Positions 18,441 to 52,783 of a DNA stretch of 64,000 nt are shown here, piece by piece. The stretch is taken from positions 552,001 through 616,000 of the forward strand of contig NZ_CP129016.1 in NCBI RefSeq assembly GCF_020524085.2, read 5' to 3'. The position numbers and the translations under genes were made by a program. Below the pieces are notes generated by a model. That model saw only the letters and a list, made by a program, of their open reading frames with translations. It was not told the origin of the DNA and made no database searches. Each line of letters begins with the position of its first letter. The first letter of the stretch is position 1. Source of the stretch: Halobacillus litoralis (GTDB lineage: Bacteria; Bacillota; Bacilli; Bacillales; Halobacillaceae).

Positions 18441-18499
18441 GAAACACAATATAAGCTAATTCAAATTAAAATAAACACTATATATAGTATCTACGAATA

Positions 18500-18645
18500 G
18501 AAGATGCCACAAGGCTTAATAGGGAATCCGGTTAAAATCCGGAGCTGCCCCCGCAACTGTCATCACTCGCGAAATGGACATTCCACTGTGCTTTGCACGG
18601 GAAGGACCAGAGTAAGATCGAGTGTCAGCCAGGAGACCTGTCTTC
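18500..18645 (+). promoter_or_regulatory. Cobalamin riboswitch controlling the nrd operon
   Basis: Conserved aptamer blocks appear in order: GATGCCAC, AGGGAATCCGGTTAAAATCCGG, GCTGCCCCCGCAACTGT (B12-box region), CCACTG, CACGGGAAGG and GTCAGCCAGGAGACCTG. The leader then has a strong terminator before the first gene. Binding of cobalamin should favour that terminator and switch off the downstream class I ribonucleotide reductase. This fits a cell that can use a B12-dependent reductase encoded elsewhere. Confidence 0.93.
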
Positions 18646-18733
18646 GTTCGTCGCAGTTTCAACTTCTTCGGGGATTGAGAAGATGAAGCGATGGAACGAA
18701 GACTCTCGTGTCTTCTCTTCGTTTCATGGTTTC

Positions 18734-18826: not shown

Positions 18827-21040
18827 ATGGAAACCATAACGAGAAGCAAGTCCTGGCCAGAGAGAATTAAACATTGGGAAGCAGACTTCCCCCATTTGAA
18901 TGTCCAACGACTTATTGATAAGTCCCCCGACCTTAAGAATGACAAACATGCAGTCATATTAGAATGTTTGGCGGAAATCGATGAAACGAGCCCGGATTGG
19001 ACGTATGTAGCGAGTCGGATCCATTTGGAGGACATGTATGAAGAGTCCGCGCACAATCGATCCACACCTGGACCTTATGAGGACTTCTACGGACTGATCC
19101 AAACGTTGGTCGAAAAGAATATTTACAGCAAGAATCTCCTTACATACTACACCAAAAAGGAGATTGAAGAATTGGAGTCCTGCATCGCACCTGATCGCGA
19201 TCATCTCTTCACATATATTGGATTGAAGACTTTAAGCGACCGCTACCTTGCCAAAAGCAAAGCTAAAGAAGTTTATGAACTTCCACAAGAACGTTTCATG
19301 ATCATCGCTATGGTATTAATGGCGGAAGAAAAAGGATCGAAGCGCCTTCCTCTTATCAAAGAAGCGTATTGGGCACTGAGTCATTTGTACATGACTGTCG
19401 CTACCCCTACCCTCGCCAATGCTGGAAAAAGATATGGACAGCTTAGTTCCTGTTTCATCGACACCATCGATGATTCCCTACAGTCGATTTATGATACCAA
19501 TACCGACATCGCCAACCTGAGTAAGCACGGAGGAGGTATCGGGGTGTACCTAGGAAAAATCAGAAGCCGTGGAAGTGACATCCGTGGATTCAAAGGTGTC
19601 TCATCAGGAATTCTCCCATGGATGAAACAGCTCAACAACACGGCTGTCAGCGTGGATCAACTGGGGCAGCGTCAGGGAGCGGTCGCTGTATACTTAGATG
19701 TATGGCATAAAGATATCTTCCCTTTCCTGGACAGCCGGTTGAATAACGGGGATGAACGCCAGCGAACTCACGACCTTTTCACAGGAGTATCCATCCCCGA
19801 CCTCTTTATGGAGGCAGTGGAAAACCGTGAGGACTGGTATTTATTCGACCCTCACGAAATCCGCACCGTCATGGGCTACTCACTGGAAGACTACTTTGAT
19901 GAAAAGAAAGGGGCAGGATCCTTCCGGGAGAAATATGCCGCCTGCGTCGCCCATCCTGACCTTTCTAAGGAGAAAGTGCCTGCGATCGAAATTATGAAGC
20001 GCATCATGATTGGTCAGCTTGAAACAGGGACACCGTATATGTTTTACAGGGATGAAGTCAATCGCATGAATCCGAACAGCCACGCGGGTATGGTTTATTG
20101 CAGCAACCTTTGTACAGAAATCACCCAGAACCAAAAGCCGACCATCCAGGATGAACAATACGTGGAAGACGGTAAAATCATTTCCGTGAAGACACCAGGG
20201 GATTTCGTTGTTTGTAACTTGTCGAGCATCAATCTCGGTCGTGCCGTCACGAATGGCGTCCTGAAGCGCTTGATTTCAATTCAAGTTCGTATGCTGGATA
20301 ACGTCATCGACCGAAATACCATTCCCGTTTTACAAGCACAACTCACGAACCAATCTTACCGTGGGGTTGGGCTCGGTACCTTCGGGTGGGCCCACCTTCT
20401 GGCCAAAAAGAAGATCGACTGGGAATCAGAGGAAGCGCTAGACTATACGAAGGAAGTATATGAAGCCGTAGCCTATCATGCCATTGAAGCAAGTTCAGAT
20501 TTAGCTGCTGAAAAAGGAAGCTACCCTCTATTCGAAGGGTCAGACTGGCAGACGGGAGGATTTTTCATTAAACGAACGTTTGACCAAGAAGGCACGTGGA
20601 ACTGGAAAGTCTTGCAGCACAAGGTGTCCAAGAATGGAATGAGAAATGGATACTTGATGGCTGTGGCACCGAACTCAAGTACATCTCTTATCGCAGGTAG
20701 CACAGCCAGTATTGATCCGATATTTAAAAAGTTTTATTCCGAAGAGAAAAAAGATTACAAGATTCCTGTCACCGCACCTGAGTTAACTCATGAAACCTAT
20801 GGGTATTACCCATCCGCCTACGATGTCGACCAGCACGCATCTATCAGGCAGAACAGCATTCGGCAAAAATTCATCGATCAATCCGTCTCGTTTAACCTCT
20901 ATGTACGGAACAACATCCAGGCGAAAGAGCTCTTGGATTTGCACTTATCCGCATGGAAACACGGATTGAAAACGACCTACTATACACGATCAACATCCAG
21001 CCAAGGAGAATTTGATGATTGTGAAGTTTGTTCATCGTAA
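18827..21040 (+). CDS. nrdA: Class I ribonucleoside-diphosphate reductase, large (alpha) subunit
   Basis: A 737-residue catalytic subunit. It has the redox cysteine in YGQLSSCFIDT, the radical site N-x-C-x-E in SNLCTEI, the second redox cysteine in VVCNLSSINL, the C-terminal tyrosines in KTTYYTRS and the tail C-x-x-C in DDCEVCSS that receives electrons from thioredoxin or glutaredoxin. It makes dNDPs from NDPs with the oxygen-dependent beta subunit encoded 17 bp downstream. AAGGAGTG precedes the ATG. It is controlled by a cobalamin riboswitch although the enzyme needs no B12. Naming as nrdA or nrdE depends on subclass, which I cannot settle by eye. Confidence 0.93.
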   Translation: METITRSKSWPERIKHWEADFPHLNVQRLIDKSPDLKNDKHAVILECLAEIDETSPDWTYVASRIHLEDMYEESAHNRSTPGPYEDFYGLIQTLVEKNIYSKNLLTYYTKKEIEELESCIAPDRDHLFTYIGLKTLSDRYLAKSKAKEVYELPQERFMIIAMVLMAEEKGSKRLPLIKEAYWALSHLYMTVATPTLANAGKRYGQLSSCFIDTIDDSLQSIYDTNTDIANLSKHGGGIGVYLGKIRSRGSDIRGFKGVSSGILPWMKQLNNTAVSVDQLGQRQGAVAVYLDVWHKDIFPFLDSRLNNGDERQRTHDLFTGVSIPDLFMEAVENREDWYLFDPHEIRTVMGYSLEDYFDEKKGAGSFREKYAACVAHPDLSKEKVPAIEIMKRIMIGQLETGTPYMFYRDEVNRMNPNSHAGMVYCSNLCTEITQNQKPTIQDEQYVEDGKIISVKTPGDFVVCNLSSINLGRAVTNGVLKRLISIQVRMLDNVIDRNTIPVLQAQLTNQSYRGVGLGTFGWAHLLAKKKIDWESEEALDYTKEVYEAVAYHAIEASSDLAAEKGSYPLFEGSDWQTGGFFIKRTFDQEGTWNWKVLQHKVSKNGMRNGYLMAVAPNSSTSLIAGSTASIDPIFKKFYSEEKKDYKIPVTAPELTHETYGYYPSAYDVDQHASIRQNSIRQKFIDQSVSFNLYVRNNIQAKELLDLHLSAWKHGLKTTYYTRSTSSQGEFDDCEVCSS

Positions 21041-21057
21041 AAAGGAGGAACTTCAAC

Positions 21058-22098
21058 ATGACGTTATCGATACAAAAAAGAAAGCTCGTCGATTATGAAG
21101 CACCAAATGCCTCGACAGGCGTGATTAACGGTAAAAGTTCGAACATCTTAAATTGGGATAATACCCGCTACTCATGGGCCTATCCGATGTATAAGACAAT
21201 GCTCTCTAATTTTTGGATCCCTAATGAAATCAACATGAGCAACGACTTGAAACAGTGGCCCGATCTCTCAGAGCAGGAGCAGACCGCATTCAAGAAAATC
21301 ATCGGACTGCTCGCTTTCTTGGATTCCATCCAAACCGATTATTCAGGAAAAATCGCGGACTACCTGACCGATTCGAGTCTCTCTGCCTTAATGCAAGTGC
21401 TCGCTTTTCAGGAAGTTGTCCATAACCAATCCTACTCTTACGTTCTCTCCACGCTCGTCGATCAAGGAGAACAGGAGAAAATTTTTGAATACTGGAAACA
21501 TGATGAAGTACTCAAAGAACGCAACACTTTTATTACCGATGGATACCAGGCCTTCGGTAATGATCCTTCCGTGGACAGTTTTCTGAAGTCCATGGTTTAT
21601 GATGTCGTACTTGAGGGCCTCTTCTTTTATGCCGGCTTTGCCTTTTTCTATAATCTAGCCAGGAATCAGAAAATGGTCTCGACAAGTACGATGATCAACT
21701 ACATCAATCGAGATGAACAAATCCATGTCAGCTTGTTTGGACATATATTTAACGAAACCTTAAACGAAAACCCAGAGTTGGATCCTGACTACTACCGGAC
21801 GTTCGTGACCAATACGTTCAAAAAAGCGGCTGATTTAGAAATCAAATGGGCACGCCACCTGATTGGGGATCAATTCCCAGGTATTCCGATCCAAGACCTG
21901 GAAGACTATATCTGTTACATCGCCAACAAACGCTGCAGATTGCTGGGGGCAGAAAAGCCGTTCCCTTCCTATACAGAAAACCCATTGAAATGGATCCGTG
22001 CCTACCAGGAAGTCGATGAAGGAAAATCAGACTTCTTCGAACAAAAATCACGTCAGTACACCAAAGTATCCGAAACCAACGGCTTCGACGACCTATGA
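21058..22098 (+). CDS. nrdB: Class I ribonucleoside-diphosphate reductase, small (beta) subunit
   Basis: A 346-residue ferritin-like radical generator. Metal ligands are D89 in FLDSIQ, E119 and H122 in FQEVVHNQ, a glutamate in VLEGLFF, and E and H in NRDEQIHVSLF. Y126 in NQSYSYV corresponds to the E. coli tyrosyl radical Y122, so it looks like an active tyrosyl-radical type rather than class Ic. It starts at the ATG behind AAAAGGAGG. It is in an operon with the alpha subunit and ends before a strong terminator; no nrdI is seen next to it. Confidence 0.93.
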   Translation: MTLSIQKRKLVDYEAPNASTGVINGKSSNILNWDNTRYSWAYPMYKTMLSNFWIPNEINMSNDLKQWPDLSEQEQTAFKKIIGLLAFLDSIQTDYSGKIADYLTDSSLSALMQVLAFQEVVHNQSYSYVLSTLVDQGEQEKIFEYWKHDEVLKERNTFITDGYQAFGNDPSVDSFLKSMVYDVVLEGLFFYAGFAFFYNLARNQKMVSTSTMINYINRDEQIHVSLFGHIFNETLNENPELDPDYYRTFVTNTFKKAADLEIKWARHLIGDQFPGIPIQDLEDYICYIANKRCRLLGAEKPFPSYTENPLKWIRAYQEVDEGKSDFFEQKSRQYTKVSETNGFDDL

Positions 22099-35790: not shown

Positions 35791-35807
35791 TCATTTCAAT
35801 TCCTCCT

Positions 35808-35914
35808 CTTATCTGTCAGATCGTCATGATCTGTAGGACGTGGCACCTTTTCAAACCGATGTTTGAAGGTTGCCGGGCTTCACAGGGCCTATTCCCTCAG
35901 CCTCTCTTGATAAG
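35808..35914 (-). promoter_or_regulatory. SAM-I riboswitch (S-box) controlling metY
   Basis: On the minus strand the S-box blocks appear in order: CTTATCAAGAGAGG, CTGAGGGA, GGCCCTGTGAAGCCCGGCAACC, AAAGGTGCCACGTCCTACAG and GACAGATAAG, the first and last pairing as P1. A terminator follows. High SAM would stop transcription of the methionine gene downstream. Confidence 0.95.
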
Positions 35915-35989
35915 AGTGGTATGCAGTTGATTGATTATGTTGAGAATTATAACGAACAACAATCAGAAAAGTCAATCATTTTAGAAAAT

Positions 35990-40688: not shown

Positions 40689-40920
40689 TTTCGAGATGTT
40701 TATTGAGTACATGGGGCTGCGGGGAATGACTCGCTTTCCGCGGGGCCCCACACGAAGTGGGGTCGTTCGATGTTGACCCAGGACGTGCCGAACTTAATCG
40801 AACTTCCTCTATTCTGTTGAGCCTCCTCGGACTTCGTCTTGTGGGGTCTCACCAAGCACTCTTTTCCCGCAGGAGTCTCGCCATTCCCCTCCGCCCCTTT
40901 ACCATAAAAGGTTCTCGAAA
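40689..40920. repeat. Interspersed palindromic repeat, subtype A, with insertion (copy R3)
   Basis: The element is bounded by TTTCGAGA and TCTCGAAA and reads opposite to copy R2: GGGGCTGCGGGGAATGACTC, then GCTTTCCGCGGG. A unique insertion of about 70 bp (near 40755-40820) is followed by GAGCCTCCTCGGACTTCG, GTGGGGTCTCACC and CCCGCAGGAGTCTCGCCATT. Confidence 0.75.
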
Positions 40921-48766: not shown

Positions 48767-49618
48767 ATGGTCGGAACAGCTTCGGAAAACAGTGTTCAAT
48801 GTAACACCGAATATTCTCCGTTGAAAAAAGTCGTAGTCGCCAAACCTTCTTACATGAAAATTACTGACATCATCAACGAAACTCAAAAACATTACCAAAA
48901 CAAGAACATAAACATCAAAACAGCTCTCCAGCAACATGAACATTTCGTACAGGTTTTAGAAGAACACCAGATTGAAGTCATACAACTTGCAAGTCAGCCG
49001 GATCTTCATGAACAGGTGTTTACAAGAGATATCGGGTTTACCATTCATCATCGACTGTTTATCAGCTCTATGAGTGAAAAGGTACGGAAAGAGGAAACGG
49101 ATGTCCTCCAGAGCTGGGCGAGAGAGAATGACATCGAGGTAGAAGAGGACCTCCCTTCATCGATTGAAGGCGGAGATATCGTTGTAGACGGGAACACGGT
49201 TTGGGTCGGTGAAACAAAAAGGACGTCCGGTAAATCCATAAGCGAACTTCAATCACGTCTCCTTGACCTTCAGGTTATACCTGTCCCTTTGAGAGGAGAC
49301 ATCCTTCATTTGGACTGCGTATTCAACATAATCGATCAATCCACTGCAATCCTTTATCCTCCTGCTTTTACAAAAAACAGTTTGAAATCCATCTCTGCAC
49401 GATACAAAGTAATTGAAGTCACCAAAAAGGAGCAATTCACCATGGGTCCGAACGTTCTTTCCATTGGAAGCCGTAAAGTGATCAGCCTCCCTCAAAACGA
49501 ACAACTAAATACACAGTTAGAGAAATATGGGTTTCATGTGATTCCTGTAGACCTTTCAGAAATCATCAAATCCGGAGGGTCGTTCCGCTGCTGTACATTG
49601 CCATTAAAACGAACATAA
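48767..49618 (+). CDS. Dimethylarginine dimethylaminohydrolase/arginine deiminase-like protein
   Basis: 283 residues of the amidinotransferase fold: YSPLKKVVVAKPSYM, VFTRDIGFTIHHRLFIS, SIEGGDIVVDGNTVWVGETKRTS, the catalytic His in LHLDCVFNII and the nucleophilic Cys in GSFRCCTLPL at the C-terminus. Enzymes of this group hydrolyse methylarginines, arginine or agmatine, or transfer amidino groups. A DDAH role would release citrulline and methylamines and would relieve inhibition of a nitric oxide synthase; nos is in the same window but 40 kb away. AAAGGAGG precedes the ATG. Confidence 0.85.
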   Translation: MVGTASENSVQCNTEYSPLKKVVVAKPSYMKITDIINETQKHYQNKNINIKTALQQHEHFVQVLEEHQIEVIQLASQPDLHEQVFTRDIGFTIHHRLFISSMSEKVRKEETDVLQSWARENDIEVEEDLPSSIEGGDIVVDGNTVWVGETKRTSGKSISELQSRLLDLQVIPVPLRGDILHLDCVFNIIDQSTAILYPPAFTKNSLKSISARYKVIEVTKKEQFTMGPNVLSIGSRKVISLPQNEQLNTQLEKYGFHVIPVDLSEIIKSGGSFRCCTLPLKRT

Positions 49619-49619
49619 A

Positions 49620-49656
49620 GTCAGTCCGCTTCTTTTAGAGCGGGCTCTTTTTGAGT
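49620..49656 (+). terminator. Terminator of the DDAH-like gene
   Basis: An imperfect stem, AGTCCGCTTC with GAGCGGGCT, is followed by CTTTTTG. A second hairpin, GACACCAC-N7-GTGGTGTC, at 49685-49707 lies between this gene and the convergent thioesterase gene. Confidence 0.7.
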
Positions 49657-49745
49657 GGAAGAAGTTCACACAAGTATAAATAAGACACCACTAAAATGTG
49701 GTGTCTTTGCATTTGTTTATTGGTTTTCAAAACACTATATACCTA

Positions 49746-50216
49746 TCATCGAAGGGCCGGTCTGCTTTTTCGGTGTTCTCTCCTGGATGGAGCCGTTTCA
49801 AACAATTGTTTATCTTCCTCTGTCTCAGGTATGATGGGCGGCACCGGTGTCGGTCTCCCTTCGACATCTACAGCGACCATCGTTAAAAATGATTCGGTCG
49901 TCATAACCTTTTGGCCTTGAAGTAAATCATCTGCAAAGACTTTCACATACACTTCCATTGATGTACGTCCCGTGCTCGTCACACAAGCTTCTAACGTCAA
50001 TGCATCCCCTACTTTAGCTGAAGATAAAAAATCTACAGAGTCTATGGAAGCTGTGACAACTACACAGTTTGAATGCTTCATAGCAGTAAGAGCAGCAATT
50101 TCATCGATATATGAAAGGACTTTCCCTCCGAAAATAGTATCCAGGTGATTCGTATCTGGTGGCAGCACTAATCTTGTTTGAGTCATTCTAGAATAACGAA
50201 CAGGTAAAGGTTCCAT
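49746..50216 (-). CDS. Acyl-CoA thioesterase (hotdog fold, YkhA-like) under cobalamin control
   Basis: 156 residues forming one hotdog domain: MTQTRLVLPPDTNHLDTIFGGKVLSYIDEIAALTAMKHS, SVDFLSSAKVGDALTLEACV and SMEVYVKVFADD. It hydrolyses acyl-CoA to free acid and CoA; chain-length preference is not visible. The ATG at 50214-50216 sits 9 bases after AGGAGG. The start codon lies inside a predicted helix: the coding-strand TTCATGGAACC pairs perfectly with GGTTCCATGAA 69 bases upstream in the leader. A cobalamin riboswitch precedes that leader. The C-terminus is basic. Confidence 0.9.
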   Translation of the reverse strand: MEPLPVRYSRMTQTRLVLPPDTNHLDTIFGGKVLSYIDEIAALTAMKHSNCVVVTASIDSVDFLSSAKVGDALTLEACVTSTGRTSMEVYVKVFADDLLQGQKVMTTESFLTMVAVDVEGRPTPVPPIIPETEEDKQLFETAPSRREHRKSRPALR

Positions 50217-50298
50217 GAATGGTTTCCTCCTTCTTGAAAGTGAATATCCCTCAAAGGGAGAATTTACAAAGCGCATTCTCCCTTTAGTTCATGGAACC
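50209..50298 (-). promoter_or_regulatory. Start-codon-sequestering helix (expression platform) of the thioesterase riboswitch
   Basis: 11 bases at 50288-50298 pair perfectly with 11 bases at 50209-50219 that include the thioesterase ATG. Inside the loop an 11-bp hairpin forms between 50253-50263 and 50275-50285 (AAAGGGAGAAT with its complement). No T-run follows, so control at the level of translation is more likely than termination. Confidence 0.7.
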
Positions 50299-50371
50299 GT
50301 AAAAGGCTCTTGATGGATCCAATACACGTAACATCCTCCTATCTCCCGTAGGAATTCATGTTCTTCCTTAT

Positions 50372-50530
50372 GGCAGGTCTCCTGACTCAGGTTCATCAGC
50401 ACATAGCCCTTCCCATAAAAAAACAGTGGGTCATCTATGCACCTCCCCATTACAGTGGCGGGACCGCGTTGGCTTTTCACCAAACTTCCCTTTTCAGCTT
50501 CTAAGACGAAGCCACCATAAGGCGGTAAAA
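50372..50530 (-). promoter_or_regulatory. Cobalamin riboswitch upstream of the acyl-CoA thioesterase
   Basis: On the minus strand: ATGGTGGCTTCG, AAAAGGGAAGTTTGGTGAAAA, GCCAACGCGGTCCCGCC, ACTGTAATGGGGAGG, CCCACTG, ATGGGAAGG and TGAGTCAGGAGACCTGCC, the ordered conserved blocks of the AdoCbl-type aptamer. The B12 box and the final C-A-G-G-A-G-A-C-C-T-G-C-C are exact. The leader then continues for 155 bases to the thioesterase ATG. An apparent 187-residue reading frame across this RNA is a by-product of the structured sequence. Confidence 0.93.
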
Positions 50531-50564
50531 TTTTCAATAGAAAAGAGTAACTCTCTTCCCATCC

Positions 50565-50593
50565 ACTATCTCCTAAACAAACACCCATGTCAA
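50565..50593 (-). promoter_or_regulatory. Promoter of the cobalamin riboswitch transcript
   Basis: TTGACA (plus-strand 50588-50593), a 17-bp spacer and GATAGT (50565-50570) on the minus strand place the start about 25 bp upstream of the aptamer. Confidence 0.65.
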
Positions 50594-50639
50594 CACGAAC
50601 AAAACTATTAATATTGTCATCTAATTTCCTAAATAGGGG

Positions 50640-50667
50640 TTGATTACGAACAATAAACTGATATACT
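50640..50667 (+). promoter_or_regulatory. Promoter of the xpt-pbuX transcript
   Basis: TTGATT (50640-50645), a 16-bp spacer and TATACT (50662-50667) lie just upstream of the guanine riboswitch. Confidence 0.6.
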
Positions 50668-50690
50668 ATCCATATCATTCGAATATAAGT

Positions 50691-50759
50691 TTTCATATAA
50701 TCGCGGGGATAGGGCCTGCAAGTTTCTACCGGTTTACCGTAAATAGACCGACTATGAAA
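50691..50759 (+). promoter_or_regulatory. Guanine riboswitch controlling xpt-pbuX
   Basis: TTTCATATAATCGCGGGGAT, AGTTTCTACCGG, CCGTAAAT and GACCGACTATGAAA reproduce the purine aptamer closely, with TTTCATA pairing TATGAAA as P1. The C in GACTATG indicates guanine/hypoxanthine rather than adenine. Confidence 0.95.
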
Positions 50760-50817
50760 AGCAGCACAAGACACCGGGGCTTTCCTGTCCACGGTTTCAT
50801 TGTCTTTGTCTACGTCT

Positions 50818-52783
<1,966 letters not shown>

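Follow-up and report, generated by a model that had tools for sequence, protein, structure and literature searches.

By sequence comparison, the cobalamin riboswitch upstream of an acyl-CoA thioesterase gene in Halobacillus litoralis has a real and conserved target, a description of which was not found in the open-licence literature searched. We think it somewhat more probable than the contrary that riboswitch and gene form a B12-repressed unit that works through a short leader ORF, a judgement that concerns the leader relay in the lineage of the window (the whole stretch of 64,000 nucleotides analysed here, whose numbering is used throughout) and not the substrate of the enzyme. Reading 5' to 3' on the minus strand from 50593 to 50209, a promoter is followed by the cobalamin aptamer, the P13 hairpin, the leader ORF, two 11-bp inverted repeats and the thioesterase start (Table 1).

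Table 1. Features of the thioesterase unit in window coordinates
Feature	Position	Strand	Basis
Promoter TTGACA-N17-GATAGT	50565..50593	-	10/12 consensus positions; same site type best in 20/41 related loci
Cobalamin riboswitch aptamer, RF00174	50355..50534	-	covariance model, 110.1 bits
Aptamer loop L5 core UCCCG, complements P13 loop	50459..50463	-	sequence and place in RF00174 alignment
P13 hairpin AACAU / UCCUA - loop CGGGAGA - UAGGA / AUGUU; proposed regulatory hairpin	50330..50362	-	comparison
Shine-Dalgarno AGGAGG of leader ORF, within P13	50335..50340	-	sequence and comparison
Leader ORF, GTG 50327-50325, 12 codons MYWIHQEPFTVP, TGA 50291-50289 within outer helix	50289..50327	-	sequence and comparison
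Outer helix 5' arm, contains leader stop codon	50288..50298	-	inverted repeat and comparison
Inner hairpin, 11-bp stem, no U-tract; full length window-specific	50253..50285	-	inverted repeat and comparison
Shine-Dalgarno AGGAGG of thioesterase	50226..50231	-	sequence
Outer helix 3' arm, covers thioesterase ATG 50216-50214	50209..50219	-	inverted repeat and comparison
Hotdog acyl-CoA thioesterase, 156 aa	49746..50216	-	PF03061, 66.6 bits; PDB 1vpm, 231.7 bits
Terminator-like stem 3' of thioesterase, seen in both orientations	49682..49707	-	consensus scan only

The RF00174 match extends over the full model (1–189; gathering score 31.5, E 1.1e-26), and the complete AdoCbl-type aptamer that an earlier note on this DNA had placed at 50372–50530 lies inside it. 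The L5 core is complementary to CGGGA in the P13 loop (50342–50348), as in a kissing loop; both loop sequences are conserved, so covariation between them cannot be counted. The promoter proposed in the earlier note was also found in its place. The region 49600–50900 has 5 promoter-like sites, against 2.5 expected by shuffling. Relatives support the call: in 20 of the 41 loci compared, out of 79 distinct leaders, the top-scoring site ahead of the aptamer consists of TTGACA and GATA(G/T)T.

The thioesterase scores well above the curated cut-off of PF03061 (20.6 bits) and below that of the YciA equivalog NF007970 (58.4 bits, cut-off 162). Its best PDB relative, 1vpm, is named acyl-CoA hydrolase and matches residues 3–156; 1vpm/3sps belong to the same protein family and differ in being a solved structure only, with an entry listing that carries no substrate or B12 information. 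An in-frame ATG at 50276 (ORF 49746–50276) was set aside as start because a Shine-Dalgarno (SD) sequence precedes 50216 and similarity to relatives begins there. A 187-aa TTG ORF at 50289–50852, which overlaps the aptamer, was also set aside.

The neighbour on the opposite strand is a purine riboswitch (50673–50774, plus strand, 82.5 bits) ahead of two ORFs that we take to encode a xanthine phosphoribosyltransferase and a purine permease. Elsewhere in the window are a SAM riboswitch (35806–35916, minus strand, 96.6 bits) and a Bacillaceae-1 sRNA (40747–40813, minus strand, 58 bits).

Distribution of the aptamer and the gene

Aptamer and gene were first seen together in relatives by a leader DNA search in 101 genomes. 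In a protein search of 397 genomes of the order, the 80 best matches (E 2.7e-53 or better, loci L034–L113) were taken as the orthologue set, a cut of our own choosing. A motif pair finds the aptamer upstream of 66 of the 80, in 17 family codes; 22 of these 66 were also run by cmscan and all match, and the remaining 44 rest on the motif pair. The 22 are the window, L047, L080 and 19 of the 20 loci of another set (in which L015 is the place of L040); the twentieth, L021, also has an RF00174 match and lies outside the 80 orthologues. The 14 orthologues that lack the aptamer by motif are likewise negative by cmscan (13 plus L065). Ten weaker homologues (L114–L123, 54–61% identity), hand-picked among the weaker matches listed, gave no aptamer by motif, five of them having also been run by cmscan. 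A class-wide sample gave a thioesterase match in 35 of 250 genomes and 28 new loci, 26 of them outside the order; by motif none of these 26 has the aptamer (19 were run by cmscan as well; ten further class-wide matches were left out). The pairing is thus widespread in a single order (66 of 80 orthologues), and this sample shows no case of it beyond that order (0 of 26).

A pattern scan of genome contigs gave eight stretches, which say nothing on frequency because the spacer allowed, 4–7 bases, leaves out the 3 that most loci have. Six of the eight are assigned to the thioesterase, five by tblastn and one, L131, which ends before the gene, as the presumed place of L021. We note that L124 (a Desulfitobacteriaceae MAG) and L129 (Desulfosporosinus) have a similar CCTACGGG...TAGGAGG element after a B12 box; next come a terminator and genes of lipoprotein-like kind, not a thioesterase. 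The P13-type hairpin may predate its link to the thioesterase.

Searches of the open-licence literature, including the portions of PMC8620254 and PMC3766115 that it supplied, gave no description of a thioesterase under a B12 riboswitch, which agrees with the earlier note's statement that none was known; subscription papers, RegPrecise and supplementary tables lie beyond this scope, and an earlier mention there is possible. The main text of PMC3766115 gives four classes of cobalamin riboswitch targets: B12 synthesis, B12 transport, cobalt transport and isozymes of B12-dependent enzymes. The present riboswitch resembles other RF00174 members in its aptamer, the same over the full length, in the complementarity of P13 loop and L5, and in the OFF logic to be expected of it; it differs in its target, an acyl-CoA thioesterase being outside the four classes of that main text, its supplementary tables aside.

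From the aptamer to the start codon

Among the 79 distinct leaders with an aptamer, 39 are loosely of the window type and 40 are not; further analysis was confined to the 38 that have TAGGAGG exactly. All 38 have the CCTACGGG...TAGGAGG hairpin, whose 3' side holds the SD sequence AGGAGG, and only L027 lacks its outer stem, which is typically AACAU or AACAC with AUGUU or GUGUU, the last pair being U-A, U-G or C-G. In 33 of the 38 an ATG or GTG 7–12 nt after AGGAGG opens a leader of 6–23 codons. In L027 (putatively Salimicrobium flavidum) the start codon behind the P13 SD is the thioesterase's own and there is no separate leader. No leader start is in range in L057 or L058, nor in Virgibacillus L128, which is outside the 38. 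L043 and L044 have AUG-UGA only; a GTG two bases further starts an ORF of 13 codons in L043 and a frame-shifted one that runs on in L044.

The leaders of the nine window-type f27 loci all have 16 codons and stop 1–2 nt before a terminator stem (f27 has a tenth aptamer-bearing locus, L090, whose leader is of the other type), and the 23-codon leaders of Salimicrobium L021, L023 and L024 end inside the terminator. Some leader residues are kept: VP-stop in the genus of the window, LE-stop together with M-x-R in f27. The synonymous fraction, computed over eight f27 leaders, is 0.267 for the frame of the ORF and 0.088 and 0.103 for the two others; since 147 of 2000 column permutations do as well and 124 of 2000 permuted alignments contain no stop codon, the coding signal is weak. 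For translation of the leader speak its place behind an SD sequence, start codons that are kept though they shift and change type, the constancy in f27 and the use of the P13 SD in L027.

The second leader type, present in 40 distinct leaders (L047, L054 and L068–L111), precedes the same gene and has a hairpin AUCUUC-UUCGGGAGUUGG-GAAGAU, a terminator of the ACCCAUCC...GAUGGGU kind and a P13 without AGGAGG. It looks like plain attenuation, perhaps in an older form.

The earlier note described an 11-bp perfect helix over the thioesterase ATG that encloses a further 11-bp hairpin. Both exist, each of 11 bp and 100% complementary (outer, 50209–50219 with 50288–50298; inner, 50253–50263 with 50275–50285), and they are the only inverted-repeat pairs in 50190–50640 at a minimum length of 9. 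Single-sequence folds only mildly beat shuffles (z -1.71, 13 of 200 as good; z -1.61, 5 of 100 as good), and the evidence therefore has to come from comparison. In 14 loci picked for leaders that end in one common register, 140 of 154 cells of the outer helix are paired in register, against 24–56% at eight other offsets, with two-sided changes at three positions (-6, -3 and +3, in L038 and L015); since these loci were picked after inspection, the pairing supports the helix and does not decide the matter. Ten representatives have 97 of 110 cells paired, against a mean of 92.4 (sd 1.5) with re-dealt arms, and 31 shuffles in 20000 do as well. For 37 loci taken without such a choice, the best duplex averages -19.0 kcal/mol for matched arms and -15.3 across lineages; L015, L041, L042 and L024 rank first for matched pairing and the window is 6 of 32, and f27, f36, L050, L010 and L019 show no preference for it. 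By these comparisons the outer helix is conserved, with modest covariation. When a ribosome is modelled on the leader stop, the thioesterase start becomes cheaper to open in 14 of 14 helix loci and 6 of 10 others, part of this gain being built in because masked bases cannot pair; in the window the gain is small (9.9 to 8.6 kcal/mol).

The inner hairpin fared differently. An alignment of the six nearest relatives (window included) has the leader and the outer helix well conserved and the inner hairpin variable; a core of about 6 bp is present in five of the six and lost in L007. It was rejected as a conserved element, the full length being absent from relatives, and is unlikely to be an intrinsic terminator, as a scan of the window leader gave no stem followed by a U-rich tail. 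A looser scan gave a 5-pair stem (50259–50247, minus strand) with the mixed tail TATTCACTTT, which was judged too weak.

An intrinsic terminator lies between leader and gene in 28 of the 38 window-type loci (a 29th candidate, in L006, overlaps the leader and was dismissed); among the 38, it is absent from the window and its five nearest relatives and from L022, L027, L041 and L042. Transcription is therefore probably controlled as well in the relatives that have it. The P13 hairpin, the leader ORF and these terminators were all absent from that note.

Routes from B12 to thioesterase expression

Sequence and comparison give an aptamer, a P13 hairpin with an L5-complementary loop, an SD sequence inside P13, an ORF, and a helix that joins the stop region of this ORF to the thioesterase AUG. 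We propose that, with adenosylcobalamin bound, L5-L13 pairing would keep P13 closed; the leader would then stay untranslated, the outer helix would keep the thioesterase start hidden, and the gene would be off. When ligand is absent P13 would open, a ribosome would translate the 12-codon leader and stop at the UGA in the helix arm, and in doing so would open the outer helix, so that initiation at the thioesterase's own SD could follow. The ribosome on the leader may, in relatives, block formation of the intrinsic terminator, either in addition or as the alternative. The gating of thioesterase translation by the riboswitch, as first proposed, keeps its two ends, an aptamer tied to the gene and a conserved start-codon helix; nothing connects this helix to the aptamer directly, the link being P13 and the leader ORF, so that the outer helix was rightly recognised and would be only the last part of the proposed relay. 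In favour of the relay, the type of output tracks the end of the leader (the terminator in f27, the overlap in Salimicrobium, the direct use of the SD in L027); against it stand the leaderless L057, L058 and L128, AUG-UGA in L043 and L044, the distance from leader stop to thioesterase start and the small modelled gain in the window.

The closest mechanism found is that of Mycobacterium tuberculosis ppe2, whose expression, according to the portion of PMC11260477 used here, needs translation of the riboswitch-controlled uORF uPPE2, and where an L5-L13 arrangement is discussed for the B12 riboswitch. In that system a P13-like hairpin with L13 masks the SD of the uORF, as AGGAGG lies inside P13 in the window, and ppe2 is expressed only if the uORF is translated, as is proposed for the thioesterase here from sequence. 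The differences are that the ppe2 uORF and gene overlap (AUGA) and reinitiation takes place, whereas in the window stop and start are 72 nt apart, and that the thioesterase has its own SD, with a start-codon helix or a terminator intervening. The thioesterase platform looks like a variant, so far as the searches show a new one, of the riboswitch-uORF kind. The M. tuberculosis pe20 Mbox (PMC12810186, in the part used) is similar in that a riboswitch directly controls a small upstream ORF; it is a magnesium sensor for which Rho-dependent termination is invoked, whereas here the terminators, present in relatives but not in the window, are intrinsic.

A switch made of RNA only, with the leader incidental, is a serious rival, though less probable than the relay as an account of the window. 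B12 would close P13 and so free the terminator in relatives, or leave the start-codon helix closed in the window; when B12 is lacking, the 3' strand of P13 would pair with the 5' arm of the terminator, or with the linker in the window, and the gene would be expressed. The strand concerned, GAGG(G/A)UGU, which uses the leader SD, can pair over at least 8 bp with the terminator 5' arm in 25 of the 28 terminator-bearing loci, and this arm is nearly invariant while its partner drifts through G-U pairs. As these are the marks of an antiterminator, many relatives probably use plain attenuation, in which the leader would be an extra or play no part; the leaderless loci named above would be at home in it. 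However, there is no terminator to free in the window or in its five nearest relatives, Salimicrobium L021, L023 and L024 have the terminator without the antiterminator pairing, and the length and stop placement of the f27 leaders, as well as L027, are left unaccounted for. A pairing of GGAGGAU with AUUCUCC in the linker is possible in the window (-9.2 kcal/mol; 29 of 300 shuffles are at least as good), but in L005, L006 and L007 this pairing is no better than shuffles (127, 204 and 80 of 300 as good); the modelled energies thus lend weak support to a swap between leader SD and linker in the window lineage.

Direct gating of the thioesterase AUG by the outer helix and inner hairpin, with no part for a leader ORF, was the version of the earlier note and is unlikely: both helices exist and dominate the fold of the region, but no pairing that links the ligand state to the outer helix was found, the inner hairpin is not kept over its whole length, and P13 with its SD sits between aptamer and outer helix. 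That the thioesterase is a bystander, the switch serving the leader peptide or an unrecognised RNA, is very improbable in spite of the conserved leader residues (VP-stop, M-x-R and LE-stop), since leaders that vary in length and sequence are followed by the same gene in 17 family codes, and in L027 the P13 SD belongs to the thioesterase.

B12 physiology and the role of the thioesterase

Ribonucleotide reductase (RNR) isozymes and uptake genes are usual cobalamin riboswitch targets in B12 shortage. A second cobalamin aptamer in the window (18485–18658, plus strand, 104 bits) lies ahead of a class I RNR alpha/beta pair (18827–22098), and the H. litoralis genome has two class II RNR matches above cut-off; a class I RNR under an aptamer beside the B12-dependent class II enzyme is the known logic of B12-independent isozymes. 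Downstream of the third aptamer of the genome (L001, G000:C1:2774123-2774301) are a lipoprotein-like ORF of 135 aa and a protein of 171 aa that matches an ECF S-component family below the cut-off; these genes possibly serve B12 uptake. As these two aptamers precede such usual targets, an OFF switch is likely for the thioesterase too.

The genome also has two PF01642 mutase-family genes and, by profile search, no CbiC match; from this one missing family, H. litoralis probably depends on outside B12. Together with the class II RNR matches, this gene content fits the B12/propionyl-CoA rationale, in which the enzyme may relieve an overload of propionyl- or methylmalonyl-CoA: with B12 scarce and B12-dependent acyl-CoA mutases stalled, it would free CoA from the accumulating acyl-CoAs. 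Co-occurrence with the mutase says little, since PF01642 is present in 337 of the 397 genomes. The four orthologue genomes without PF01642 (G116, listed as negative, and G198, G223 and G312, read as negative from not being among the listed positives) all lack the aptamer and, being of one genus code, count as a single event; ten genomes with the mutase, among the 80 orthologue genomes, likewise lack it.

Taken more widely, and with clearly less than even confidence, we suggest that in one order a B12 riboswitch licenses a leader-ORF ribosome as the switching device; that its outputs are a leader stop placed at a terminator, a leader running into one, a start-codon helix opened at the leader stop, as in the window, or direct fusion to the gene; and that the thioesterase is a new target class for CoA rescue when B12-dependent mutases stall. 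If this is true, acyl-CoA hydrolysis would join the jobs switched on in B12 shortage, this group of thioesterases would gain a testable physiological role, and there would be a riboswitch-to-leader-ORF relay outside Mycobacterium, the source of both precedents found. The differing outputs in close relatives would allow study of how a riboswitch moves between transcriptional and translational control.
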